Of a DNA stretch of 64,000 nucleotides, positions 23,172 to 24,257 are shown in pieces. The translations under genes were made by a program, and so were the position numbers. Source of the stretch: Pseudomonadales bacterium (lineage in GTDB: Bacteria; Pseudomonadota; Gammaproteobacteria; Pseudomonadales; Pseudohongiellaceae); the NCBI GenBank assembly GCA_022825945.1, contig JAJDVS010000102.1:1-64000 (forward strand), read 5' to 3'. Numbering within the stretch: position 1 is the first letter of the stretch; each line of letters begins with the position of its first letter. Below the pieces are notes generated by a model. The model saw only the letters and a program-made list of their open reading frames with translations, was not told the origin of the DNA and searched no databases.

Positions 23172-24257
23172 GTGGGTGGGCTGGCCCGGCTGGAAATCCA
23201 TTCGTTTCGCAACATCAGCCATTGTGCGATTTCGCCGGACCCGAAATTGAATGTAATCGTGGGGGCCAATGCATCCGGAAAAACCAGCCTGCTCGAAGCC
23301 ATCCATTATCTGGCGCTTGGCAGGTCTTTCCGGTCCAGCAATTTCAAGCCGCTCATTCAGTCAGACAAACCGGAAACCGTTCTTTTCGGGGAACTTGCCA
23401 GCGGCGCAAGCGCGGGTTTGCGCAAGTCCCGCAAGGGCGAGCAACAAATCAAACTCAATGGAAAAGGGGTTCGTGGCTGGGAAAGCATCGCCAGGGTAAT
23501 GCCGGTGCAATTGCTCGACACCACTTCCTTTTCCCTGCTCACCGATGGGCCGAAGCTGCGCCGCAGATTCATCGATTGGGGAGTGTTCCACGTGGAACAC
23601 GCATTTCTTCCTGCCTGGCGGCGGGCGCACAAGGCGCTCATGCATCGTAACTCCCTGCTCAAATGGCCGGGGAAACCCGATACAGACCAATTGTTCGCCT
23701 GGGAGGAAGAACTGGCTGCCAGTGCGCTGCAGATAACCGCCTCAAGAGAGTCGTATTGCCAGCGTCTGTTGACAGCTTTCAGTCAGGCCTTACACACTTT
23801 GGACAAGGAGCTGGGAGACGCGGTGGCGCTGCAATTCCACGCCGGCTGGAATCGCGAGCATGATCTTGCCGGTTTATTGCGGGAAAACCGTGAAAGCGAC
23901 CTGGCCCAGGGTTCCACCCGCCACGGGCCGCACCGGGCCGATCTGCTCGTCAAGTCGGGCCACCATCGGGCGGTGGATGTGCTTTCCCGAGGACAGCAGA
24001 AGTTGGTGGTTTCCGCGCTAAAGGTGGCCCAGGGTGAACTTTTCTTCGAGACCCGGGAACAGCGGCCGATTTATCTGGTAGACGATCTCGCCGCTGAACT
24101 GGACGAAGGTAACCGCAAGGGGGTTTTTGATTTGTTGCAATCACTCGGCGCCCAGTTGTTCGTCACCTGCGTCCACCTGGAAGCTCTTGGTGCCAGCCTC
24201 TCGGACCCGGTGCCGGGAAGCCTGTTCCACGTGGAACATGGTACAATAACGGCTTGA
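23172..24257 (+). CDS. recF: DNA replication and repair protein RecF
   Basis: 361 residues from the GTG at 23172. Walker [21 protein letters not shown], the FHVEH region after RRRFIDWG, the ABC-type signature [18 protein letters not shown], and Walker B-like [12 protein letters not shown] are present. RecF loads RecA at gaps with RecO and RecR. Two perfect parS palindromes lie inside the gene and are both read as Phe-His-Val-Glu-His. The second is at the extreme C-terminus and may be an added segment. No strong ribosome site is seen, and coupling to dnaN (15-base gap) is likely. Confidence 0.97.
23584..23599. promoter_or_regulatory. parS: parS site 1
   Basis: TGTTCCACGTGGAACA, a perfect 16-base palindrome matching the parS consensus of Pseudomonas-type chromosomes. 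It is inside recF, about 10 kb from parAB. Confidence 0.93.
24223..24238. promoter_or_regulatory. parS: parS site 2
   Basis: A second identical TGTTCCACGTGGAACA at the 3' end of recF, 639 bases from the first. TACAAT follows at about 24242 and could be the -10 of a gyrB promoter, so bound ParB might affect gyrB expression. Confidence 0.93.

Follow-up and report, generated by a model that had tools for sequence, protein, structure and literature searches.

The recF gene at 23172–24257 (+ strand; GTG start as listed; 337 bits with TIGR00611, whose cut-off is 172) contains one DNA palindrome twice, read each time as the same five residues, which raises the question of whether the protein or the DNA accounts for the repetition. 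An earlier note on this DNA, a stretch of 64 kb hereafter called the window, had taken the two palindromes for perfect ParB sites (parS) sharing one reading frame, and had suggested that one of them may be a duplicated or drifted-in copy. We find both palindromes where a chromosomal centromere would be expected, and examined their codons, their orthologues and the sequence that follows the second one.

The parS pair and its neighborhood

parS site 1, TGTTCCACGTGGAACA, lies at 23584–23599 (no strand assigned; recF codons 138–143, V-F-H-V-E-H) and parS site 2, again TGTTCCACGTGGAACA, at 24223–24238 (no strand assigned; codons 351–356, L-F-H-V-E-H), five residues short of the stop codon of a 361-residue RecF. 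The sites are perfect 16-bp palindromes with the GTTNCACGTGNAAC core expected of parS, identical to each other, in the same frame and spaced by 639 bp. With up to three mismatches allowed, they are the only matches in the window; shuffled windows gave 0.17 matches on average, and two matches were reached in one of 100 shuffles. The genome scan that the earlier note had proposed returned no third place with fewer than two mismatches in the whole assembly (2.64 Mb, 113 contigs, 96.28% complete). Since the next-best match has two mismatches, the recF pair constitutes the whole recognizable parS set of this genome. A chance origin of the sites is rejected by the shuffles, by the assembly scan, and by the codon statistics described below.

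The sites are embedded in a dnaA-dnaN-recF-gyrB cluster. They follow the beginning of the dnaA reading frame by 3.4 and 4.0 kb and are hence close to the origin as placed by its genes. The dnaA frame (20220–22034, +) was named from its sequence, and relatives match upstream of dnaN; the true start of dnaA is probably further in than the first listed one. It is followed by dnaN (22053–23156, +; TIGR00663), recF, and gyrB (24313–26742, +; TIGR01059 and PRK14939). A DnaA-box-like TTATCCACA at 20340–20348 (+), near the dnaA frame start, is a weak match because the 9-mer TTWTNCACA occurs twice in the window against 1.5 expected occurrences. No structured RNA was found in 19000–27000 in Rfam at gathering scores.

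On the minus strand, the cluster is preceded by parB-parA-gidB-gidA-mnmE-yidC (neighbors without a listed family match were named from their sequence). The cognate parB and parA genes thus sit beside gidB and gidA (together 11533–15868), as is typical of chromosomal systems. ParB (11533–12477, −) matches TIGR00180 with 173.5 bits against a cut-off of 58.45 and contains GERRWRA and ENIQRE motifs. The best NCBIfam match of ParA (12474–13325, −), encoded between parB and gidB, is a ParA model, although the score of 106.3 falls short of the cut-off of 180. A frame next to parB on its other side (9837–11309, +) resembles, as judged by eye from the translation, a fusion of an APS kinase with a sulfotransferase-like domain.

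The palindrome could instead serve another CACGTG-type regulator or a Noc-like protein, and NCBIfam does score the ParB of the window highest against a Noc model, if below the cut-off (217.8 against 315). We give this possibility almost no credence, since the sites match parS over the full 16 bp and since ParB carries GKSR and GHAR where a Noc chain carries GKGQ and RHAR. Alignment to ParB chain 6t1f, which we take to be the Caulobacter protein, places R and G of these motifs at the two parS-type contact positions. These correspond to R173 and G201 in Caulobacter numbering, which passages of PMC7383237 describe as the residues that separate parS-type from Noc-type specificity. A Noc-type site was rejected on these residues.

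A recF parS pair is already known from Pseudomonas aeruginosa, where parS1 and parS2 are located in recF (PMC5521831, PMC3909081). According to passages of PMC4368675, ParB of this organism binds both sites, and one of parS1–4 suffices for segregation; it is also reported for P. aeruginosa that ParB spreads from parS in vivo and that loss harms segregation. The resemblance to the window is close. The two recF sites of P. aeruginosa lie downstream of dnaA-dnaN at the same aligned RecF positions and have near-identical sequences, the peptides in strain PA7 being VFHVEP and MFHVEH; parAB is found about 7 kb away on the other side of oriC, and TGTTCCACGTGGAACA is identical to parS2 and parS3 as printed in PMC4368675. 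P. aeruginosa differs in having ten sites, four of them near oriC and parS3 and parS4 intergenic, whereas the recF pair is the whole recognizable set in the window. In Xanthomonas citri the gene neighborhood and the motif are the same, but parS (at least one site reported) is at the 3′ end of dnaN, outside recF (PMC3937727). In the literature that we searched, which took in few subscription journals and not the 2007 parS survey, recF-located parS appears only for P. aeruginosa, and we recognized nothing there on class-wide conservation, codon constraint or promoter overlap.

By sequence and context, the reading as ParB sites is right. We are highly confident that the palindromes are the two-site parS centromere of this chromosome, dual-coded in recF, which ParB would bind to drive segregation, and that site 2 abuts an element most probably driving gyrB. 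The parB gene is 11 kb away, and its product would load at each parS, clamp, and slide over the dnaN-recF-gyrB region; as cargo of ParA it would then move newly copied origins apart. Because one of parS1–4 is enough in P. aeruginosa, the two sites are probably redundant loaders.

Distribution of the recF sites

Among 99 genomes of the family, the core GTTNCACGTGNAAC occurs genome-wide twice in 86, not at all in seven, once in three, and three times in three. All 93 genomes with a RecF match were read at recF; 87 contain both sites in frame, spaced by 630–684 bp in 86 loci and by 618 bp in one. For the class we sampled one genome per family (151 genomes, that of the window included), took site counts from whole-genome tables, and took positions from the matches listed or from fetched loci. 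Two sites is the commonest number: 92 of the 151 genomes have exactly two, and for 74 of them both fall inside the recF frame. A RecF match was present in 129 genomes. Leaving aside G099 and G207, where only weak fragments match, we read 127 loci; 90 of these loci have two in-frame sites, separated by 606–669 bp in 89 cases and by 465 bp in one. The recF parS arrangement is therefore kept across most sampled families of the class.

Two in-frame sites are missing from 37 of the 127 loci. One of these runs off its contig (G192) and two have broken frames (G163, G185); the others are not explained that way. Six of the 37 (G107, G139, G176, G204, G229, G243) are short of an in-frame site and have a parS 4–32 bp after the recF stop codon. 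In G202, G216, and G228, one site is within the recF frame but read in another frame, and G383 has two sites in its genome and none at either recF position. A further 80 named recF loci had been found with a pattern containing FHVE and were therefore excluded from the site 1 statistics; the fetched stretches contain two sites in 63 cases, one in 16, and three in one. In the list of relatives with a clade name, high RecF identities belong to an OM182 bacterium (49%) and to Pseudohongiella (46%), from which we take the window to come probably from a Pseudohongiellaceae-like member of Pseudomonadales. Outside the class, none of 20 recF loci examined contains a site, and in a part of the genomes scanned for sites, compared by eye where both coordinates were listed, the sites are situated elsewhere than recF.

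Two genomes stand apart. In G012 both recF sites have a changed center (CATGTG at site 1, CACATG at site 2) and the genome contains no perfect core; its ParB specificity may have shifted, or the system may have been lost. G316, from the same order, has 12 parS cores genome-wide and also both sites in recF.

This distribution bears on the suggestion that one parS was recently duplicated or drifted into a second place in recF. The identity of the two 16-mers in the window would fit such an event. However, most class recF loci examined have an orthologue of each site at the corresponding place of the RecF alignment; comparing the RecF C-termini of relatives, as the earlier note had advised, was a correct check. 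The sites parS1 and parS2 of P. aeruginosa are the same two sites. Moreover, the flanks of the two sites in the window are unlike, the sites of P. aeruginosa PA7 differ from each other (the first ends in AACC, the second in AACA), and so do those of OM182 MED-G28 (TGTTTCACGTGGAACA and CGTTCCACGTGGAACG). The suggestion was thus not borne out, and we consider a recent duplication extremely improbable.

The interval also matters where RecF is missing. Ten site-bearing loci from genomes without a match to the RecF of the window were examined (G111, G211, and G221 were left out). In eight of them (G180, G241, G155, G208, G174, G126, G231, G109) the sites lie between dnaN and gyrB. These spacer loci share motif and dnaN-gyrB interval with the window and differ from it in that the sites, one or two close together, are outside any recF; G180 has one more, its third, at a distance of 13 kb. 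Even when recF is lost, the centromere tends to remain in the dnaN-gyrB interval. In G215 (C48:1244–1816), 12 perfect-core parS with a period of 43 bp, flanked by two one-mismatch copies, are directly upstream of gyrB. In G205 (C1:140084–141211), three parS fall within the stretches that match gidA and gidB, and the match to parB is about 2 kb from them.

Codon constraint and the RecF peptide

Alternatively, selection might act on the RecF peptide FHVEH at its two places and yield the DNA identity as a side effect, with no ParB site involved. Site 1 follows a conserved xDWG stretch of RecF, and the earlier note had regarded its peptide as a natural part of the protein. Codon choice speaks against this explanation. 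In the family, H-V-(E/K) is encoded by CAC GTG (GAA|AAA) in 92 of 93 loci at site 1 and 87 of 88 at site 2, where 5.4 and 5.1 would be expected from the codon usage of each gene itself; the class gives 106 of 108 and 99 of 102 (expected by the same calculation: 7.1 and 7.3). When 161 conserved RecF columns were tested for synonymous constraint, the seven top scores belonged to V141, V354, H140, H353, V138, E142, and E355, all of which are parS codons. The seventh score was 8.3, the eighth, a serine elsewhere in RecF, 7.4, and the median 1.1. Codon choice at the sites is thus fixed far beyond codon usage, with no free synonymous variation seen. Such DNA-level conservation beyond the encoded protein is what a chromosomal parS should display.

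The two half-sites also change together. At site 1 in the class, Lys (AAA) accompanies Phe TTT in 14 of 47 loci and Phe TTC in 0 of 61 (p = 2.4e-6); the same association appears at site 2 in the class (p = 9.7e-4) and in the family (p = 3.8e-4), and is not seen at site 1 in the family (p = 0.61). These, like all Fisher and binomial p-values given here, ignore relatedness between genomes. We ascribe the covariation of the Phe codon with the choice of E or K to palindrome symmetry, which predicts matching half-sites.

To see RecF in genomes free of these sites, the absence of ParB is of little use as a contrast within the class sample, since ParB is matched in 144 of its 151 genomes; we compared instead lineages that passages of PMC4368675 report to be without ParABS, namely Enterobacteriaceae and Pasteurellaceae. 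Pasteurella RecF reads LFHHHN at the place of site 1 and TFRVEE at that of site 2. E. coli, Klebsiella, and Proteus (which belongs to Enterobacteriaceae only in an older, wider use of the name) have CFHNEP or CFHNEA at the first place and MFTVEK, MFRVEK, or LFSVEH at the second. Three site-less genomes of the class (G281, G257, G352) are similar to these Enterobacterales and Pasteurellaceae at both places. In these seven site-less RecF proteins, Phe and His persist at site 1 in all seven and V-E at site 2 in five, which speaks for selection on the peptide; H-V-E is intact at neither place in any of them. Nor do 20 RecF proteins from outside the class contain FHVE or FHVK at either place, the nearest being FHVQ at site 2 of G264. 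The view of the site 1 peptide as natural RecF sequence therefore holds for Phe and His and fails for the H-V-E run.

The six loci with parS just beyond the recF stop codon likewise argue against peptide selection, to which we assign only a minute probability. Protein-driven conservation was rejected by the fixed codons together with the site-less and outside-class RecF sequences. Since the parS codons are nearly fixed and H-V-E is not intact in enterobacterial and Pasteurella RecF, we conclude that the centromere shapes the RecF protein. Under the centromere reading, the sites must stay readable by ParB and would therefore dictate five RecF codons twice (TT[CT] CAC GTG GAA/AAA C..), the FHVEH peptides being by-products of the DNA site.

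The element beside site 2 and gyrB

The earlier note had placed site 2 at the very C-terminus of RecF, next to a −10-like element ahead of gyrB, and this agrees with what we find. The putative extended −10 element TGGTACAAT (24239–24247, +) directly abuts site 2 and is conserved in the family, where TGGTANAAT follows the site without a gap. Among 87 family loci with both sites, exact TGNTANAAT abuts site 2 in 81 and follows site 1 in none; elsewhere in family recF it occurs three times in 98,193 bp. (These and the following numbers cover loci that have an aligned C-terminus, a full flank and, for some counts, both sites.) The abutting element is present in all eight family genera sampled. Six loci have site 2 and lack the element; five of them belong to one genus, g8. 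In four family genomes site 2 is imperfect and the element is still there. The codons that form it are restricted as well: Gly is GGT in 87 of 87 loci, where 22.3 would be expected, and Ile is ATA in 69 of 85, where the expectation is 20.9. Between them, the residue varies among T, K, I, and R with the N of TANAAT. Judged by this codon choice, the element is under selection at the DNA level. That a parS site abuts a conserved extended −10 element is a new observation.

In the rest of the class, exact TGNTANAAT directly abuts site 2 in 0 of 89 loci. Instead, 42 of 123 loci have TGNTATAAT, with at most one mismatch, at exactly +33 as counted from the start of the site. This position accounts for 42 of 56 best matches over 65 positions, and a control window after site 1 yielded any match in only 1 of 126 loci. 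The recF stop codon is inside the +33 element in 36 of the 42. Neither the +16 nor the +33 element was found in 18 further class loci, including P. aeruginosa PA7, Azotobacter, and nine genomes of the order of the window. The locus of G109, a genome without a RecF match, has a gap of 280 bp between its dnaN and gyrB matches, with two parS and what appears to be a remnant of the RecF C-terminus; its spacer reads FHVEHGPRRSMV followed by a stop codon, with TGGTATAAT at +33 from the site. The other eight dnaN-gyrB or gyrB-upstream loci contained no +33 element.

A TGN-TATAAT-like element at a fixed place is one mark of a promoter. A recognizable −35 hexamer with 16–18 bp spacing is another, and none was found; a generic sigma-70 scan that requires this hexamer reports no promoter in 23900–24400. 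Extended −10 promoters can lack a −35. Given that the two-hexamer scan finds none, a gyrB promoter at this place would be of the extended −10 type without a −35. We think that parS site 2 probably overlaps such a promoter. Transcription would start near 24254; with the gyrB ATG at 24313, the leader would be about 60 nt long. ParB bound at site 2 would then cover the upstream face of this promoter, and because the site abuts the element most probably driving gyrB, ParB there should compete with RNA polymerase. In P. aeruginosa, an excess of ParB lowers gyrB mRNA two-fold (PMC5521831).

This arrangement allows a different division of labor, in which site 2 serves chiefly as a ParB operator for gyrB and the centromere proper is site 1. 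The confinement of the −10 element to site 2 points in this direction, as does its co-occurrence with parS2 in the class: the +33 element is present in 41 of 97 loci with parS2 and in 1 of 26 without (p = 1.2e-4, although a missing site also weakens the alignment). In addition, G109 retains parS and element at the same +33 spacing without a RecF match. On the other hand, the element remains in the four family genomes with an imperfect parS2, so the promoter does not need this site, and P. aeruginosa and other genomes of the order have the pair without the element. Moreover, in P. aeruginosa cells without ParB or without functional parS1–4, only PA0010–PA0015 rose significantly, and not gyrB (PMC5521831). 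Overall we judge a mainly regulatory site 2 unlikely, if the strongest competitor of the two-site centromere.

P. aeruginosa PA7 differs from the window in having no −10 element abutting parS2, and the lowering of gyrB by ParB in that organism must therefore work otherwise. Because P. aeruginosa deficient in ParB or parS does not raise gyrB and lacks the element, coupling between ParB and gyrB in the family of the window is only a prediction. A bolder proposal, which we are somewhat inclined to doubt, is that the 3′ end of recF is triple-coded, both in this family and in roughly one third of the remaining families sampled, with the RecF C-terminus, parS, and the gyrB promoter packed into 25–42 bp. 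ParB occupancy would then tune gyrase synthesis at the origin and couple segregation to supercoiling, and the module of parS2 and promoter could outlive recF, as in G109.

What the two-site centromere in recF means is that a DNA segregation signal dictates residues of a DNA repair protein, at two fixed positions and throughout the depth of a bacterial class; for this reason it would be wrong to take the conserved FHVEH for a functional motif of the protein. The arrangement also supplies a genomic rule for finding parS in this class, namely to look in recF or, in genomes that have lost this gene, in the interval from dnaN to gyrB. For the family of the window, the element beside site 2 offers a testable link between ParB and the transcription of gyrB.
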